This document shows positions 1 to 10,141 of a DNA stretch of 10,141 bases, piece by piece. Position 1 is the first letter of the stretch. Each line of letters opens with the position of its first letter. Below the pieces are notes generated by a model. That model saw nothing but the letters and a program-made list of their open reading frames with translations, had not been told where the DNA came from and ran no database searches. The stretch comes from an uncultured Planctomycetaceae bacterium (GTDB lineage: Bacteria > Planctomycetota > Planctomycetia > Pirellulales > UBA1268). A program made the position numbers and the translations under genes. The stretch is taken from the NCBI GenBank assembly GCA_937926325.1, contig CALAZQ010000322.1, forward strand, positions 1 to 10,141, read 5' to 3'.

Positions 1-10
1 CTGCCGTCAC
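1..10 (-). CDS. Possible start of the next transporter gene (LivF expected)
   Basis: A GTG at 8-10 overlaps the TGA of the livG-like gene as GTGA and continues as Met-Thr-Ala to the edge. The two earlier junctions in the cluster overlap the same way, and HAAT clusters usually end with livF, the second ATPase. No clear Shine-Dalgarno precedes it and only three codons are visible, so this is a prediction from context. Confidence 0.3.
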
Positions 11-1239
11 CGATCGAGTGGAATCATCCGATCACAGATGGCGGTCAACGGCCCGGCGGTCGAGGCTGTCAGCAGCAGCGTGACCTGCTGCTGCCGGACG
101 GCGGTCAGCAGGTCGGCCAACGACTGCTGCTCAGCCGCGGTGAGCCCGGCCTCGGGCTCATCGACCAGCAGCAGCCGGGGGCCGATCGCCAGGGCCCGGG
201 CAAGCTCGAGCCGCCGCCGGTCTGCCAACGACAGGTCGACCGCCAGCTGCTGCCGTCGGCTGTCGAGGCCGACGAAGGCAAGCAGCTCGGCGGTTCGGTC
301 GGCTGCCCCACGTGACCACCAGTGCCGCCAGCCTGAAGCGGCGGCAGCCTGTTCAGCGGCAACCAATACGTTTTCCTCGGCTGTCAGCGCGGGAAAGATC
401 CGTGGCTGCCGAAAGGTACGGGCCACGCCGCCACGGGCAGCGACCTCTGGCGAACGCCGGCCCTGCTGCCAGATCGCAACCGCCATGGCGATACCGAGGA
501 GCATGCCGCCACCCAACGCGGTCCAGCCTCGGAGCCTGACCGACCGCTTGCCGGCGGCGAGCCGGTCGAGCGTTGCCGCGTCGAGCGGCAACAGCCGGCG
601 GGGCTCGTTGGCATCGCCTACAAGGTCGCTCAAATCGGGGACGGTCGCCGGACCGATGCGACGGGCGGTCACTGCTGCCTGCAGCTGGTTCCGCAGTTCG
701 CGGGCCTCATCCAGCTCGCGGCGAACCGCCAGCACCGCGCGGCCATCAGCGGTGACGATCCGCCAGTGATCGGCCAGCGGGTCGATGGCCAGCTCGGCCC
801 GAAAATAGCTGCGGAGGCGGCTGGCAAAGGTTGCCGGCGTGAATGGTTCGTCGACTGCCAGCCCTCGTTTCACAACTGCCAGCCAGAGGCTATCGACATC
901 GACTGCCGCGGCCGCGGTCAGCAGGCCGATGAGCAGACCGCTGGTCAGCACGAGCCAGAAGGTGGCCGCCGTGAACGACCGCTTGAGACGGTGCCCGTCG
1001 AGACGCACCGAGCCCGAGCTGGCAGTCCGCAGACCACCGATGCAGTCGAGAATCGCTGCCTTGCCGGTGTGCCCGAGCCCGAGCAGGGCGACGGCCTCGC
1101 CTTCAGCAACATCAAGTTCAAGCTGTCGCACGGGGACGGTCGAGCCGACCCTGACCGTCAGCCGATCGACGTCGAGCAGGGGAATGTCGGCTGAAGCCGC
1201 TGCCCCACCACGACGGAAACCGGACTGCCAGCGGCTCAT
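7..1239 (-). CDS. LivG-like ABC pseudo-ATPase with inserted two-TM domain
   Basis: A 410-residue protein in the position of LivG, the ATPase of a HAAT importer. Residues 20-85 and 263-410 align with a LivG domain: Walker A region GLGHTGKA (54-61), GSVRLDG (76-82), SPEVAARGGVARTF (263-276), PALTAEENV (283-291), Walker B LLLVDEPEAGL (356-366) and ICDRMIPLD (401-409). Between them lie about 177 extra residues with hydrophobic segments at about 91-113 and 239-258. Basic residues (KR at 86-87, RR at 261-262) sit on the expected cytoplasmic side of both. Catalytic positions are changed: A-loop aromatic is Val31, Walker A Thr/Ser is Ala61, Q-loop Gln is Arg277, signature LSGGQ is LSLAD (336-340), and the H-loop EHD is AST (392-394). 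The start ATG overlaps the livM stop (ATGA). I infer little or no ATP hydrolysis and a structural, anchoring or regulatory role. No in-frame stop suggests a functional gene rather than a pseudogene. Confidence 0.85.
   Translation of the reverse strand: MSRWQSGFRRGGAAASADIPLLDVDRLTVRVGSTVPVRQLELDVAEGEAVALLGLGHTGKAAILDCIGGLRTASSGSVRLDGHRLKRSFTAATFWLVLTSGLLIGLLTAAAAVDVDSLWLAVVKRGLAVDEPFTPATFASRLRSYFRAELAIDPLADHWRIVTADGRAVLAVRRELDEARELRNQLQAAVTARRIGPATVPDLSDLVGDANEPRRLLPLDAATLDRLAAGKRSVRLRGWTALGGGMLLGIAMAVAIWQQGRRSPEVAARGGVARTFRQPRIFPALTAEENVLVAAEQAAAASGWRHWWSRGAADRTAELLAFVGLDSRRQQLAVDLSLADRRRLELARALAIGPRLLLVDEPEAGLTAAEQQSLADLLTAVRQQQVTLLLTASTAGPLTAICDRMIPLDR
454..984 (-). other. Inserted TM - extracytoplasmic - TM domain inside the LivG-like protein
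   Basis: These bases encode about residues 86-262. The flanking LivG sequence is complete on both sides, so this is an addition rather than a replacement. Order: basic stop KR, TM1 (AATFWLVLTSGLLIGLL, about 91-113), about 125 residues predicted outside the membrane (114-238), TM2 (WTALGGGMLLGIAMAVAIW, 239-257), then basic QQGRR. The middle contains WRIVTADGRAVLAV (159-172), which resembles a two-strand hairpin, followed by a charged helix with heptad-like spacing (about 173-194), then a Pro/Leu/Asp-rich part. I do not recognise the fold. No flanking direct repeat or composition change marks it as a recent insertion. Confidence 0.75.
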
Positions 1240-2318
1240 CGGTGGGACTCCCGCAGTTCGGTGACCAGGCGGCGGGAGGGGAGCAGTCCCTCGGGCCGGA
1301 ATCGCATCATCGCAATCAGAGCGAGCCCAACCAGCGCCAGCCGCCAGCTGCCCACCGTCAGCGGGCCGGCAGCCGAGGCCGCCGGTTGGAGCTGCTGCAG
1401 CCAGGCATCAGCGGCGGGAATCACCACGATGTCGAGCCCAAACAGGATGCCGACCCCCAGCAGAATGCCCGGCAGGCTGCCCAGACCGCCGAGGATGACG
1501 GCACAGAGCACCGCCACCGACCGGCCAAAGCCATAGCTGTGGGGATCGCCGGTCGTGCCGAGGTTGGCTGCCGAAAGGCAGCCGGCCAGCCCGGTGATCG
1601 CGGCCGCGATGGCGAATGCCGAAAGTCGGACCTGGGTGGTGGAGATTCCGACCGTGGCAGCCGCGACTGGATCCTCTCGAAAGGCGATCCAGCCGCGGCC
1701 GACCGCCGACCGCTCAAGGCCGCGGAGAAAAAGCACCACGGCAACCAGACAGGCAAGGGCCAGGAAATAGAACCAGCGGGGATCAACCACAAACGCCCGG
1801 CCGAGGTCGATACCGGCCAGGGTCAGCCCTGCCCCCGGGGGCGGAACCGAGCTGAGCCCCTGCATGCCTCCCGTAATCTGCTCGAGGTTGCCCAGCAGCG
1901 CCCGAACCACTTCACCAAAGCCGAGCGTGACGACGGCCAGTGAATCACTCCGCAGACGGAGGGTTGCCGCCGCCAGCAGACTCCCGACCGCGGCCGTGAT
2001 CAGGATGCTGATCACCAGAGCCGGCAGAAAGCCGATTTCCAGCGGGTTGGTCGGCACTGTCAGGATGGCCAGGAGCAGGCCACCGATTCCCATGAAGGCG
2101 GCGATACCCAGATGAAGAAGGCCGGCCAGCCCGACAACAACATTGAGGCCGAGGGCGGCGATACAGAGGATCAGTACCGATGTCAGCGGGCCGCCGATGC
2201 CGCCAAAGGCATCGGCCAGTGCCCACGGCGCGAGGGCCAGCAGGCCGAAAGTCGGCACCTCCCAGCGCCGGGCCAGCCAGCGTAAAAGACCGGACAGATG
2301 CAGCTTGCCAGCCGTCAT
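1236..2318 (-). CDS. livM: LivM-type ABC permease (branched-chain amino acid/HAAT family)
   Basis: A 360-residue integral membrane permease, expected to pair with LivH. Landmarks: LGLNVVVGLAGLLHLGIAAFMGIGG (56-80, only partly quoted by family), LRLRSDSLAVVTLGFGEVVR (120-139), ITGGMQGL (148-155), a canonical coupling loop GRGWIAFREDPVAAATVGI (207-225), ILGGLGSLPG (275-284) and MMRFRPEGLLPSRR (337-350). The ATG at 2316-2318 is preceded by a strong AGGGAGG ribosome binding site and overlaps the livH stop by ATGA. The frame runs further upstream inside livH, but that stretch is Arg/Cys-rich, lacks membrane character and is not a real N-terminus. The 3' end overlaps the livG-like start, again by ATGA. 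Unlike LivH, its ATPase-docking loop is normal, so it should engage a conventional nucleotide-binding subunit. Confidence 0.93.
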   Translation of the reverse strand: MTAGKLHLSGLLRWLARRWEVPTFGLLALAPWALADAFGGIGGPLTSVLILCIAALGLNVVVGLAGLLHLGIAAFMGIGGLLLAILTVPTNPLEIGFLPALVISILITAAVGSLLAAATLRLRSDSLAVVTLGFGEVVRALLGNLEQITGGMQGLSSVPPPGAGLTLAGIDLGRAFVVDPRWFYFLALACLVAVVLFLRGLERSAVGRGWIAFREDPVAAATVGISTTQVRLSAFAIAAAITGLAGCLSAANLGTTGDPHSYGFGRSVAVLCAVILGGLGSLPGILLGVGILFGLDIVVIPAADAWLQQLQPAASAAGPLTVGSWRLALVGLALIAMMRFRPEGLLPSRRLVTELRESHR

Positions 2319-3232
2319 GCCGCCCTCCCTGCTGCAACCGGACGGCCGAAGAGCCCCTGAGGCCGGAACGCCAGTACCACAATCAACATGAAAAAGACCG
2401 TGGCGACGGCCCAGCGGGGGCCTACAAGAGCAACCGAGGCAGCCCGCACCAGCCCCACCAGCAGCCCGCCGACAATGGCCCCCGGCACACTGCCGATGCC
2501 CCCCAACACGGCAGCCGAAAGGGCGTAGAGCCCGGTCTGGTAGCCAAGCTGATAGTTGACGGTGGTGGCATGGATGCCGGCAGCGACGCTGGCGAGCCCA
2601 CCGAGAAAACCGCCGAGAAAAAACGTCGCGGTAATAAATCGCTCGGGGCCGCTCGTCCGGCTCGAGGCCCGGGCGACGGCGGCAACCGACCGCAGCGAGC
2701 GGCCAAAACCGGTCCGTCGCAGCAGCACCGACAGACCGACAAAGGCGGGCAGCACGATCGCCAACACGAGCAGGTCGCCAGTCGGCAGCCAAACCCCGGC
2801 CGCCAGTCGATCACCGGTCATCACCGCCTCGGGAAAGGCCTGATCGGTCGGACCGATCCAGAGGAGGCCGACATTCATCAGGATGAACGAGACACCGACG
2901 GCCGAAACCAACAGCGTCAGGGGCGGGGCCTGCCGCAGCGGCCGATAGATGACGCGGTCAATCAACACATTCAGGCCGCCGCAGAACAGCCCACAGCAAA
3001 GGGCGACCAGCATGACCAGCAGCGACCCGGCCACCGGCTCCAGCGGCAGTGGACCGGCCAACGCCAGGAGCGTGACGGCCAGGCAACCGCCCAGCATCAC
3101 CACATCACCATGGGCAAAGTGGATCAGGCCGACCGTACCGTAGACCAGTGTGTAGCCGACAGCGATGAGACCGAGGATGCCACCGCTGGTCAGGCCGATG
3201 AGACACTGGTGGAGGAACGAGGCGAGGGTCAC
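2315..3232 (-). CDS. livH: LivH-type ABC permease (branched-chain amino acid/HAAT family)
   Basis: A 305-residue integral membrane permease, one half of the transmembrane pore. Landmarks of the LivH family are GYTLVYGTVGLIHFAHGD (26-43), YRPLR (96-100), AAVLGGIGSVPGA (240-252) and the C-terminal LAFRPQGLFG (287-296), with about eight hydrophobic segments between. The start is GTG at 3230-3232; no better start is in frame and the N-terminus lines up with family members, but no good Shine-Dalgarno is visible. The cytoplasmic coupling loop after FGRSLRSVA (176-184) is degenerate: the usual acidic/Ala-rich helix ending in a Leu-Met-Gly-Ile type motif is replaced by VARASSRTSGPER, about one residue shorter. 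That loop normally docks on the ATPase subunit. The stop overlaps the livM start by ATGA, so translation is probably coupled. The symbol reflects family, not proven substrate. Confidence 0.92.
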   Translation of the reverse strand: MTLASFLHQCLIGLTSGGILGLIAVGYTLVYGTVGLIHFAHGDVVMLGGCLAVTLLALAGPLPLEPVAGSLLVMLVALCCGLFCGGLNVLIDRVIYRPLRQAPPLTLLVSAVGVSFILMNVGLLWIGPTDQAFPEAVMTGDRLAAGVWLPTGDLLVLAIVLPAFVGLSVLLRRTGFGRSLRSVAAVARASSRTSGPERFITATFFLGGFLGGLASVAAGIHATTVNYQLGYQTGLYALSAAVLGGIGSVPGAIVGGLLVGLVRAASVALVGPRWAVATVFFMLIVVLAFRPQGLFGRPVAAGRAA

Positions 3233-3285: not shown

Positions 3286-4521
3286 TTACCCACCATCAGG
3301 CCCGCCGCCCATGCCAGTTGCGGGAATCGTCTCTTCATAGACGAATCGGCCGTTCCGGACCACGCTCACCGACAGTTCTCGCCGGGTCGTGTCGCCATTG
3401 GCATCGACGCTCCAGCGACCAAGCACGCCGTCGAAGTCGGTCATTGCCAAAGCGGCTGCGGTGATTGCCTTCCGGTCCCGGCTGGCGGCCGCCGCGATGG
3501 CCCGCAGCACGACGCCTGCCGCCTCATACCCACAGAAGGCAGCGGGTTCAGGCAGGCTGCCATACCGCTGCTTGTAGGCGGCGGCGAAGGCGGCCCCGCG
3601 GATCGTGGGACGGTCGGGGGAGGGACCGCCGAAGGTGGCAAAGCACCGCCCTTCGACCGCCGCCGGGCCCGCGGCATCGATGAAGGCCTGATTGAGGCAG
3701 CCATCGGGAACGAGCAGCACCGCCTCGCAGCCGGCAGCCGCCAGATCGCGGGCAAGCTGGCCACCCTTCGACTGTGTGCTGCCACCGAAATAGATCAGGT
3801 CGGGGTCGGCGGCCACGATCGCGGTGACAAACGAACGGAACTCGGTGGCCTGCGGATCGATCGACGCGTGGGAGAGCACAGCCATGCCCCGCTGTCGGCA
3901 GCGATCAGCGAACAGGCTGGCAACCCCACGGCCGTAGACGCCGCCATCATCGACCACGCAGACCCGCCGCAGGCCACGGCCGAAGGCCCAGTCGGCGGCC
4001 AGTGGCCCCTGGACATCATCGGCGGGGATCACGCGGACATAGTTGAGCCGGCCGGAAGGCCGATAGATTGCCGGCTCTCCCTGGAGCCCGAGGCCCGGCT
4101 TGGTCAGGCCCACGGCGGTGTTGGCTGGTGAGACCATCAGCAGGTCGGCGTAGTTGAGGATGGGGAGTGAGACGCGGGCTGCCGCCGAGTTGAGTGTTCC
4201 GATGACCGCCACGACCGCCGGGTCATGAACCGACCGCCGGGCATTGGCTGCCTCACCCTCGCTCGTCCAGCGACCGGCCGCCACCGAGGCATTGTCGAGG
4301 TCGAGGTATTTCACCCGGAAGGACCCGGCCCGGCCGCCAGCCTCATCGATGGCCAGCCGAATGCCACGAACAATCGCCTCGCTGGTCGGCCGTGCCGGCC
4401 CGGTCCGCGGCAGGCTGGAAACAATCACCACCTGATCCGGCGCTGTCGGCCGACAGCCGGCCAGCCCGAAGGTCAGCAAACACACCGTCGGCAGGATTCG
4501 TGATTGCCCCCAAAACGTCAT
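3286..4521 (-). CDS. LivK-type ABC transporter substrate-binding lipoprotein
   Basis: Extracytoplasmic binding protein of the branched-chain amino acid / amide (HAAT) family, type I periplasmic-binding fold, 411 residues. I chose the ATG at 4519-4521 because it gives a lipoprotein signal directly: a short polar N-terminus with Arg8, a hydrophobic core ILPTVCLLTFGL and lipobox LAGC with Cys23. An upstream in-frame ATG at 4609-4611 adds 30 basic residues partly encoded by the repeat. Family landmarks: VVIVSSLPRTGP (31-42), VIGTLNSAAARVSLPIL (106-122), SPAN (131-134), DDGGVYGRG (191-199), YEAAGVVLRAI (332-342) and a C-terminal DFDGVLGRWSVDANGD (362-377). The mature protein should be anchored by its acylated Cys and deliver ligand to the LivH/LivM permeases encoded 53 bases downstream. 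The substrate cannot be read from sequence; amino acids, amides, urea or other small polar solutes all occur in this family. Confidence 0.92.
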   Translation of the reverse strand: MTFWGQSRILPTVCLLTFGLAGCRPTAPDQVVIVSSLPRTGPARPTSEAIVRGIRLAIDEAGGRAGSFRVKYLDLDNASVAAGRWTSEGEAANARRSVHDPAVVAVIGTLNSAAARVSLPILNYADLLMVSPANTAVGLTKPGLGLQGEPAIYRPSGRLNYVRVIPADDVQGPLAADWAFGRGLRRVCVVDDGGVYGRGVASLFADRCRQRGMAVLSHASIDPQATEFRSFVTAIVAADPDLIYFGGSTQSKGGQLARDLAAAGCEAVLLVPDGCLNQAFIDAAGPAAVEGRCFATFGGPSPDRPTIRGAAFAAAYKQRYGSLPEPAAFCGYEAAGVVLRAIAAAASRDRKAITAAALAMTDFDGVLGRWSVDANGDTTRRELSVSVVRNGRFVYEETIPATGMGGGPDGG

Positions 4522-4621: not shown

Positions 4622-6865
4622 TCACGGCCGCTTCACCAGCCGCCAAGACCGGTGGATGCGGGCGTTGCGAAAATCTTCGGGGATCGTCTGCCGGGTGATC
4701 TCCCGGATGGCGTACCGTCGGGCCAGCCGGTCGTCGTCAAGTCTGAACCGGCGGAAGTTGGTTGAAAAGTAGACCACACCTTCAGCCGCAAGATTGTCAG
4801 CCACCAGCTCGAGCAGATCGGCATGGTCCCGCTGCACATCCCAGTCGGTGGCCGCCTTGGCCGACCGCGAATAGGTGGGCGGGTCGACCACCACCAGATC
4901 GAACGGCTCGCCGCCCCGCCTGAGCCGATGCTCAAGGAAAGCCCGGGCATCGTCCCGGACGAGCTCATGCCGCCGGCGATCGACGAAGCCGTTGGCCGCC
5001 AGGTTTCGCCGGGTCCAGTCGAGATAGGTGTTGGAAAGATCGAGGCTGGTGGTCGTTGCCGCCTTTCCCGCCGCCGCCGCCACCGAGAAGCTGCCGGTGT
5101 AGCAGAAGAGATTGAGCAGCCGCCGGCCGGCCGCCTCACCCCGAACCAGGGCCCGGGTGGGCCGATGATCGAGGAACAGCCCGGTGTCGAGATAGTCGGA
5201 CAGATTGACCTCAAACTGCAGGCCGGCCTCCGCGACGGCGAGCGTCGCCTGCCGGTCATCGACCTTTTCGTACTGCCCGCCCGCCCGCTGCCGGCGACGG
5301 GTCTTGAGAAAGACCCGGTCGGCCGCGACGCCCAGTTCGGCGGCGGCCGCCTCGACCATGCGGTCGAGCCAGACGTCATGTTCGATCGCCGTCCGGTCGT
5401 GGGGCCGCTCGTACTCAGCCGCATGGAGATAGTCGCCGTAGCGGTCGATCACGAGCGGAATCTCGGGGATGTCGCGGTCATAGAGCCGATAGGCCTCGAT
5501 CCCCTGCCGGCGGGCCCAGCGGCCCAGATGCTTGGCCCGCTTTGCCAATCGTCGGCGAAAGTCACCGAGCTGGTCGGCCACCGTGCGGCCCGCTGCCGGG
5601 AGATGTGCCGAGTCGGGAACAGCGGCAGCCGTTCCCCCCGGCTCTGCCTCAGCGGGTGACGGCGGTGGCTCTGTCCGCTGTCGCACGACCAGCTCGACCA
5701 GCCGGCAGTCGATCGGCCCGTTGGCCAGCGGCAGCCGGCGATGAGGCTTGAGGCCGATCGCCTTGGCCGTGGCAGCGGGGGCGAGGACTGCCGCCCGCCA
5801 GCCGCCGCACCTGAGCTTGAGCCAGTCCCCCAGCCGGCGAAAGATCGCCGCCGCCCGGGCCACCGGCAGCCGCTCGCCGTACGGTGGATTGGTCACGATC
5901 AGCCCCGGCTCAGCCGTCGGCACCACCTCCTCAAAGTGCCGCTGCTCGACGGTGATGAAGTCAGCCAGCCCCGCTGCTGCTGCCGATTCCCGCGCGGCGG
6001 CGACCGCGGCCGGGTCGAGGTCGCTGGCTTGAAAGCGACCGGCTGGTTCGACGACCCGAGCCTCCAGCTCAGCCACAATCCGCGCTGCCAGCTGGCGGTC
6101 GCAGTCGGCGAAGCGAAAGAAGCCATGGCCCTTCCGTCGGGCTCGCAGCAGTCCCGGCGCGATGCCGGCGGCCTGCGTGGCGGCCTCGATCACCAGCGTG
6201 CCAGAGCCGCAGAAGGGATCGAGCAGCGGCTCCCCCGGCTGCCAGCCAGCCAGGCCGAGGATGCCGGCGGCCAGCACCTCCGACAGGGGCGCCTCGACCT
6301 TGCCCTGCCGCCAGCCCCGCTGATGCAGCGACTGGCCGGCGGCATCGCGGAAGAGCGTCGCCGTGCCGCCAGCCAGATGCAACGCCAGCCGCAGGCTCGC
6401 CCCGTGCAGCTGCACATTCGGCCGCCGACCGGTCGCCGCCCGCAGCCGGTCGACGACAGCATCCTTGACCACCTGTGCGGCGTAGAGTGAGTGACTGACA
6501 AAGCTGTCGTGGACAACCGCGTCGACCCGCAGGGTCTGGGTCGGCTTGAGCTGGGCCGGCCAATCGATACTGGCCACAGCCCCGTAGAGCGACTCGGGCG
6601 AATCGACCGCAAACCTTCCCAGCGGCTCGAGCACCCGGATGGCGGTGCGGCTTTCCAGGACCGCCCGGTAGAGCGTCTCGGTGCTGCCCGAAAACTCGAC
6701 GGTGCGGCGGCCGACCCGCAGCTCAGTGCCTCCGGCTGCCTCAAGCTCAGCCGCCAGCAGCCACTCCAAACCGTCGAGGGTCCGGGCGGTCAGTCGCGGC
6801 GGCTCATCTGCCGCAGCAGGCAGCAACGGCCGCGGCGCAGGGGGCTGTTCAGGAAAGGATGGCAT
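4622..6865 (-). CDS. rlmL: Fused 23S rRNA methyltransferase RlmKL (m2G2445 / m7G2069)
   Basis: A 747-residue bifunctional SAM-dependent methyltransferase. By family knowledge the N-terminal RlmL part makes m2G2445 and the C-terminal RlmK part m7G2069 of 23S rRNA (E. coli numbering) during 50S assembly. In order: a THUMP-like region (about 25-165), the RlmL Rossmann domain with motif I LLDPFCGSGTL (214-224) and catalytic NPPYGER (326-332), a Pro/Ala/Glu-rich linker (about 397-428) that probably separates the two enzymes, then RlmK with LFLDHRPTR (563-571), SAM motif LLNLFCYTG (583-591) and VVVDPPTYSRS (658-668). The protein is slightly longer than the roughly 700 residues of E. coli RlmKL, mainly from the N-terminal tail and linker. 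The ATG at 6863-6865 is preceded by a GAGGGG Shine-Dalgarno-like stretch. With a 54-base gap it probably follows carB in one transcript, though the two have no known functional link. Confidence 0.96.
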   Translation of the reverse strand: MPSFPEQPPAPRPLLPAAADEPPRLTARTLDGLEWLLAAELEAAGGTELRVGRRTVEFSGSTETLYRAVLESRTAIRVLEPLGRFAVDSPESLYGAVASIDWPAQLKPTQTLRVDAVVHDSFVSHSLYAAQVVKDAVVDRLRAATGRRPNVQLHGASLRLALHLAGGTATLFRDAAGQSLHQRGWRQGKVEAPLSEVLAAGILGLAGWQPGEPLLDPFCGSGTLVIEAATQAAGIAPGLLRARRKGHGFFRFADCDRQLAARIVAELEARVVEPAGRFQASDLDPAAVAAARESAAAAGLADFITVEQRHFEEVVPTAEPGLIVTNPPYGERLPVARAAAIFRRLGDWLKLRCGGWRAAVLAPAATAKAIGLKPHRRLPLANGPIDCRLVELVVRQRTEPPPSPAEAEPGGTAAAVPDSAHLPAAGRTVADQLGDFRRRLAKRAKHLGRWARRQGIEAYRLYDRDIPEIPLVIDRYGDYLHAAEYERPHDRTAIEHDVWLDRMVEAAAAELGVAADRVFLKTRRRQRAGGQYEKVDDRQATLAVAEAGLQFEVNLSDYLDTGLFLDHRPTRALVRGEAAGRRLLNLFCYTGSFSVAAAAGKAATTTSLDLSNTYLDWTRRNLAANGFVDRRRHELVRDDARAFLEHRLRRGGEPFDLVVVDPPTYSRSAKAATDWDVQRDHADLLELVADNLAAEGVVYFSTNFRRFRLDDDRLARRYAIREITRQTIPEDFRNARIHRSWRLVKRP

Positions 6866-6919
6866 ACGCCCCTCGCGGCTGTCCGCTCCATCGACTCGCA
6901 GGCGGTCGGACTGATCGCA

Positions 6920-10141
<3,222 letters not shown>

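Follow-up and report, generated by a model that had tools for sequence, protein, structure and literature searches.

The ATPase subunits of importer-type ABC transporters are regarded as soluble motors. Loss of catalytic residues from one nucleotide-binding domain (NBD) is tolerated in ABC proteins with one degenerate ATP site, such as TM287/288 and CFTR; ABC-F proteins carry a soluble arm inserted in the NBD; and the ECF S-component BioY is able to act alone, without an ATPase. The locus described here shares features with each of these. Its closest counterpart is LivG of the HAAT importers (PRK11300, with a PF12399 C-terminal tail), its top family match, with which it shares the two NBD halves and the gene order livK-livH-livM-livG(-livF). 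However, it differs from LivG in a 177-residue insert with two predicted transmembrane (TM) segments, in the absence of the catalytic motifs and of the PF12399 tail (present in its relatives at loci L018 and L072), and in the absence of livF from its clade. The second-best family match is the urea importer ATPase UrtD (TIGR03411), whose cut-off of 304 bits lies above the 104.9 bits scored; we know of no insert in UrtD. In TM287/288 and CFTR one competent site remains, whereas no gene for a partner ATPase was found in the clade of this locus. As in ABC-F proteins, the insertion lies between Walker A and the signature, but it is predicted to cross the membrane rather than form a soluble arm. Finally, as with solitary S-components, part of an ABC-type transporter is retained without its ATPase, but BioY is a single small membrane protein, whereas this cassette includes a binding lipoprotein and a pseudo-NBD.

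A HAAT-like gene row in a planctomycete contig

The window, i.e., the whole stretch of 10,141 nucleotides that was analyzed (contig CALAZQ010000322.1 of an uncultured Planctomycetaceae bacterium), carries on its minus strand the genes carB, rlmKL, livK, livH, livM, and a livG-like gene, whose stop lies at window base 7. The liv names are those of the best family matches, every one of which falls under its NCBIfam cut-off; the binding protein (PF13458) and two occurrences of PF02653, together a HAAT gene row, score above the Pfam cut-offs.

3286..4521, minus strand: livK, substrate-binding lipoprotein with lipobox LAGC (PF13458, 126 bits; matches solved branched-chain amino-acid binding proteins)
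2315..3232, minus strand: livH, permease of 305 aa (PF02653, 95 bits; LivH top NCBIfam match, 146 bits against a cut-off of 379)
1236..2318, minus strand: livM, permease of 360 aa (PF02653, 128 bits; LivM top NCBIfam match, 172 bits against a cut-off of 366)
7..1239, minus strand: livG-like gene, coding for a putative pseudo-ATPase of 410 aa with a two-TM insert (open reading frame; PF00005 in two stretches)

The similarity of LivK to solved structures of proteins that bind branched-chain amino acids makes an amino acid or an amide its likely ligand. The livG-like protein scores 109 bits to PRK11300 (cut-off 362), and the LivG of L018, a relative with intact motifs, scores 307 bits, likewise under the cut-off; descent of the gene from LivG appears clear from its position in the row and from its full-length homology to the L018 protein. 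Judged by gene order and sequence, the cassette as a whole is a descendant of a HAAT importer. A plus-strand open frame of 1034 aa (6491-9595), antisense to carB, is probably not a gene, because such long antisense frames are usual in very high-GC DNA.

The membrane insert and its distribution

The first-pass annotation had described an unbroken frame in which an insert separates an N-terminal NBD half from the stretch SPEVAARGGVARTF. The frame is indeed open (7-1239, minus strand, 410 aa), and the position of the insert (residues 86-262, window 454-984) is confirmed; Pfam ABC_tran hits the protein in two separate stretches, and the best PDB match aligns to residues 22-85 and 273-404. By its length and its predicted two-TM insert the product departs from the soluble LivG of approximately 250 residues.

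985..1185, minus strand: N-terminal NBD half, residues 19-85 (alignment to solved NBDs; strands in the model)
454..984, minus strand: insert of 177 residues, 86-262 (shared position across the 118 aligned rows; a shorter counterpart in L067, L068, and L070-L074)
904..969, minus strand: predicted TM helix 1, residues 91-112 (hydropathy; model helix)
532..900, minus strand: predicted external domain, residues 114-236 (approximately 123), helix-helix-three strands-helix (structure model; lowest dN/dS of the gene in the window clade)
574..624, minus strand: external linker, residues 206-222, with VGDANEP (hypervariable in intact relatives, conserved in the window clade)
466..531, minus strand: predicted TM helix 2, residues 237-258, within a model helix of residues 221-260 (hydropathy; uncharged run; model)

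The third-position GC contents (GC3) of the N-terminal half, the insert, and the C-terminal half (0.72, 0.80, and 0.78) indicate no sharp compositional break at the insert borders. In the window protein the hydropathy peaks in 19-residue windows are 2.05 for TM1 and 1.68 for TM2, and across the family a value of at least 1.6 is reached by TM1 in 118/118 sequences and by TM2 in 45/118 (median 1.47), whereas the highest-scoring window of the NBD halves reaches it in 12/118 (median 1.28). The longest uncharged run in TM2 spans 20-23 residues in all 118 sequences; in the NBD halves the longest such run has a median length of 18 residues and never exceeds 20. An AlphaFold2 model from the 118-row alignment (mean pLDDT 80) shows two long helices, viz., 91-112 and 221-260, with the helix-helix-three strands-helix arrangement of the external part predicted at lower confidence. 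From hydropathy, uncharged runs, and model helices, we take TM1 to be firmly, and the only moderately hydrophobic TM2 likely, a transmembrane segment. The first-pass topology, with both NBD halves cytoplasmic and the loop (here a conserved domain) outside, is supported as a prediction by hydropathy, flanking charges, and the model. Foldseek searches with the model of the livG-like protein recover ABC NBDs (target-normalised TM-score to approximately 0.8 among the matches listed), with a high rmsd because the insert splits the fold. For the external domain, five inserts gave no Pfam match above cut-off, and its stand-alone model, which is poor (pLDDT 58), gave no structural match at Foldseek E ≤ 0.001 (best 0.17).

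A protein search yielded 563 relatives; 117 of the best 120 were aligned with the window protein, giving 118 rows, and all 117 carry the insert at the site for which the first-pass annotation had suggested looking. When a single genome was scanned for each species, 60 family loci were recovered, in addition to four unrelated matches. Planctomycete-titled records account for 58 of the 60, the others being L002, from a bin labelled Pseudomonadales, and L041, titled simply 'bacterium'. The external domain is no single oddity: it occurs in 62/72 genomes of the family-level group of G001 and, with at most 21 candidates per genome scored, in at least 42/196 from the order-level group around G004, where ten are distant versions. 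L002 (WLWP01000019.1) holds a planctomycete cassette very close to that of L004, and its 5.8 Mb genome bin is probably mixed or mislabelled.

Other planctomycete LivGs (L067, L068, L070-L074) have a minimal insert at the same site, in which 30-34 residues separate an LW motif from TM2, against 117-119 in the window family; the two forms have in common the LW, a Phe, a Trp, and an Arg. The TM hairpin thus looks like an old planctomycete variant of LivG, and the external domain like an elaboration of its loop. At L066 (700-2436) the LW motif and TM2 of a LivG lie 269 residues apart, again at the same insertion site; by eye this insert consists of repeated beta-beta-alpha-like units, and it has no Pfam match above cut-off. 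A large number of further planctomycete matches cover only the C-terminal half, in frames of approximately 255-310 residues, and hence probably lack the insert. Matches to the insert were found in 9/294 genomes of a planctomycete sample and in 1/200 genomes of the phylum of G410, both counts being lower bounds (at most 17 and at most 25 candidates scored per genome, respectively); the genome of L018 (G011), for instance, was missed in the 294-genome sample and found (E 1.9e-4) once all candidates were scored. The one match outside planctomycetes, a weak one (E 2.4e-4) in the genome of L062 (Plasticicumulans), has two internal stops and was rejected. Searches of single genomes of other phyla (G409, G411, G412) gave no match to the insert.

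Loss of ATPase motifs, livF, and the LivH coupling helix

The residues that bind and hydrolyze ATP in canonical NBDs have decayed in the window protein at the following places:

1054..1080, minus strand: decayed Walker A, residues 54-62, GLGHTGKAA (intact form GPNGAGKTT; alignment)
400..423, minus strand: Q-loop region, residues 273-280, ARTFRQPR, with Gln277 replaced by Arg (alignment)
211..240, minus strand: decayed ABC signature, residues 334-343, VDLSLADRRR (alignment)
151..174, minus strand: Walker B, LLLVDEPE, largely kept (alignment)
58..84, minus strand: H-loop region, VTLLLTAST, with no His (alignment)

These changes are shared by a set of 37 rows, including the window protein, which was picked by relative rank and later confirmed as one branch (hereafter the window clade). 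The second Thr of Walker A (residue 62) is present in 81/81 other rows and replaced by Ala in 37/37 clade rows; residue 277 of the Q-loop is Arg in 37/37 and Gln in 81/81; the signature Gly and the H-loop His each occur in 0/37 clade rows and 75/81 others. The Walker A Lys is kept in 24 of the 37, with Arg in the remaining 13, and Walker B reads DE in 31/37, DD in four, and EE in two. Among the 81 other rows, 75 keep all four motif residues and six lack the signature Gly and the His while retaining those of Walker A and the Q-loop; as the 'intact' set used below is these 81 rows minus the six with a lost motif, its uniformity is by definition. With Walker A, Q-loop, signature, and H-loop all broken, the window domain is not a normal ATPase domain, and on the alignment the LivG of the window clade has lost its ATPase. 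Binding of nucleotide without hydrolysis is possible, given the mostly kept Walker B (DE in 31/37) and the Walker A Lys in 24/37. The exceptionless replacement of Gln277 by Arg would be unlike the expectation from free decay.

A second lineage (L010 [G016:C177], P0038, P0040, P0041, P0050, P0054, P0059) lacks the signature and H-loop residues and keeps those of Walker A and the Q-loop. In a tree of the inserts, the 37 clade rows group together (100/100), as do the six half-decayed rows (100/93), the latter nested with P0039 and other L018-like rows (99/100). The LivM tree likewise recovers the window clade as one branch (100/100; 10 rows) and places the half-decayed L010 with the intact L018 (83/99, below the mark for firm support). 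Motif loss thus seems to have begun twice, in separate lineages. L010 has a livF, whose signature LSGGE reads LSAAE and whose product ends 19 residues short.

The gene order carB-rlmKL-livK-livH-livM-livG-livF-recQ is widely shared among the loci, with recQ mostly in the opposite orientation and in a few cases in the same one. Outside the window clade, livF adjoins livG in 47/50 loci (cut by the contig end in four), and the remaining three contigs end inside livG; in the 72-genome family-level group, livF (E ≤ 1e-60) is found in 49 of the 62 genomes with the external domain, the 13 without it being three where a contig end cuts its start, one where the contig ends in livG, and nine of the window clade. 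These counts are not independent, as the 60 loci and 72 draft genomes largely overlap (and L036/L052 and L057/L059 share a genome pairwise). In the clade, livF occurs in 0/9 readable loci (L001-L009), a tenth (L042) ending inside livG. The recQ match ends 42-59 bp from the livG stop in eight of the nine and 352 bp from it in L001, where tblastn found no LivF in the gap (8234-8581) at E ≤ 1e-8. Elsewhere in nine clade draft genomes, which are incomplete and like all clade loci derive from metagenome-assembled genomes (MAGs), no livF was found: the best LivF-like match has 32-35% identity, a level of paralogue also present in LivF-bearing genomes (the mixed bin G002, with a 44% LivF match on another contig, was left out). 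Since the window ends at livG, the absence of livF from its own genome is inferred from L001, whose protein is 87% identical, and from the clade. The window does not contain the downstream ATPase with which the first-pass annotation proposed to model the protein, and this gene is absent in 9/9 readable clade loci. The further suggestion of that annotation, taken to mean an active ATPase subunit that passes a signal on to an active transporter, is not supported for the window clade, in which four catalytic motifs and livF are gone. Neither the clade loci nor the draft genomes yielded a partner NBD gene for the pseudo-LivG, i.e., a partner that could supply a competent site. With two or three LivH/LivM-family permeases in each of the nine clade genomes, the liv row seems to be their only Liv cassette. 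In the LivF of L018 (8328-9035), VEQN takes the place of the expected switch His; the ATP site built on the LivG Walker A may therefore be the sole fully canonical one even in intact systems.

The permeases bear a matching but one-sided change:

1629..1688, minus strand: LivM coupling-helix region FREDPVAAATVGIS, kept in outline (alignment)
2636..2695, minus strand: LivH coupling-helix region LRSVAAVARASSRTSGPERF, lost (RAVSQDxTAAALVGIDVDR-like in LivF-bearing relatives; alignment)

The LivH motif QDxxAAxxxG of LivF-bearing loci is lost in 9/9 clade rows with sequence (14 of the 43 non-clade rows were displayed in this comparison), including Gln185 and Asp186, which are at least 95% conserved in 42 LivF-bearing rows. 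The corresponding region of LivM, RE(D/E)xxAAxxxG(I/V), is kept in 10/10 clade rows, with changes at the conserved Glu217 and Met223. Positions at least 95% conserved in LivF-bearing rows are lost in the clade at 80/221 sites of LivH, 52/250 of LivM, and 39/250 of LivK. Because the coupling helix is gone from LivH and kept in LivM, in correlation with the loss of livF, the most economical interpretation would place LivF formerly on LivH and the pseudo-LivG still on LivM. Long frames over both genes had also suggested LivM-LivG fusions; as LivM lies outside the livG frame in 55/56 placeable loci, the exception being L040, where it lies in that frame beside unread bases, these fusions were dropped, and with them the argument from fusion for LivM-LivG pairing. 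In its readable loci, the clade cassette lacks two defining features of HAAT importers, namely livF and a coupling helix in both permeases.

The genes that remain are under purifying selection in the clade. For LivK, LivH, and LivM, dN/dS in clade pairs (six or seven per gene) is 0.04-0.22, in frames that run back to the previous stop and in some cases include sequence upstream of the start; pairs with dS > 1 are unreliable. Within livG, the external domain has a dN/dS of 0.029 in five pooled clade pairs, which share some members, against 0.068 in nine intact pairs; the C-terminal NBD half shows 0.145 against 0.038, an approximately fourfold increase, and the TM segments 0.090 against 0.123. 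Constraint within the gene has thus swapped sides in the clade, with the C-terminal half looser and the external domain, the most strongly constrained part of the cassette, tighter. Mean pairwise identities in the clade are 0.83 for the external domain and 0.57 for the C-terminal half; the corresponding values for the other rows, here with five of the six half-decayed ones among them, are 0.73 and 0.79. The linker 206-222, hypervariable in intact relatives (mean pairwise identity 0.332), is conserved in the clade (0.785; VGDANEP), which suggests a new contact.

An ATP-independent role and its alternatives

On balance we lean toward the view that the liv cassette of the window clade is an amino-acid importer stripped of its engine and selected for an ATP-independent role, which would most likely be ligand sensing. 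Its ancestor would have been a planctomycete branched-chain amino-acid importer, LivKHMGF, with the NBD of LivG interrupted by a TM hairpin, whose outer loop would have grown into a conserved external domain in one family. In the window clade livF would then have been deleted and the ATP-binding and hydrolysis residues of LivG, as well as the helix with which LivH held LivF, lost, while the remainder (LivK, LivH, LivM, and a membrane-threaded pseudo-LivG) would have been selected as an ATP-independent complex. Here the pseudo-NBD would most likely remain bound to LivM, serving as its structural cap, while the external domain and new linker would touch or read LivK or LivHM from outside, so that binding of the ligand would be reported across the membrane in place of driving uptake. 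A complex without an ATPase cannot concentrate a solute, and a high-affinity lipoprotein with a membrane-threaded partner would fit a receptor better than a passive pore, although either may apply. The sensory role raised in the first-pass annotation thus survives in an ATP-independent form as our inference, and the part of it that invoked relay to a working ATP-driven transporter falls away. More tentatively, the ATPase module itself may have turned into an ATP-free membrane-threaded receptor, which would span the membrane within its own NBD, hold LivM on its lower side and LivK or LivHM on its upper side, and report amino-acid binding, with the second lineage undergoing a separate conversion.

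The retention of LivK, LivH, and LivM at low dN/dS would also be expected if LivK fed a passive LivHM channel, with the pseudo-LivG as plug or scaffold, an idea with a parallel in solitary ECF S-components used without an ATPase ('solitary BioY' is a phrase in use in the literature). However, a high-affinity binding protein would gain little by feeding a passive pore, and the precedent concerns another type of transporter; we regard such facilitated entry as unlikely. Less probable still is that another ABC ATPase powers LivHM in trans, in the manner of the multitask ATPases of type I importers. ATPase sharing between importers is described in PMC7658222, and the clade genomes G001 and G003-G010 each hold 23-45 LivF matches and many ABC ATPases, but none of these LivF matches exceeds 35% identity in the nine genomes, the other seat would presumably be taken by the pseudo-LivG, and the loss of the LivH coupling helix disfavors a borrowed ATPase.

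If instead the whole cassette were on its way out under residual constraint only, the loss of the catalytic motifs and livF and the fourfold higher dN/dS of the C-terminal half of livG would find a ready explanation. Against this improbable course stand the livG frame, which runs uninterrupted to its stop codon in L001-L009 (the start is missing in L007, and L008 has unread bases), the values of 0.04-0.22 for LivK, LivH, and LivM and of 0.03, below intact relatives, for the external domain, and the newly conserved external linker. That the clade loci all come from MAGs, with L002 in a chimeric or mislabelled bin, could raise the suspicion of an assembly or binning artefact; as the livG-recQ junction recurs in nine MAGs, each under a WGS prefix of its own, a separate record (P0001) is 99% identical to the window protein over its full length, and the gene order is shared among loci, we reject this reading, to which we accord only a minimal chance.

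We agree with the first-pass annotation that no LivG with a membrane insert seems to have been described: among the matches listed from the open-access literature there was no description of such an insert or of an ATPase-free Liv complex, which is weak evidence of novelty. In these planctomycetes, LivG is a motor subunit that appears to have been threaded through the membrane and from which the motor was then removed, in two lineages to different degrees, with the rest kept. Among the matches listed, many of the family's genes that bear a name at source are called branched-chain amino-acid transport ATPases, and uptake is therefore predicted for organisms that perhaps lack it. The family offers a comparative series, from the minimal insert through the external domain with working motifs and the half-decayed versions to the ATPase-free cassette, which would allow both the abilities of a binding protein and permease without ATP and the pairing of ATPases with permeases to be tested.
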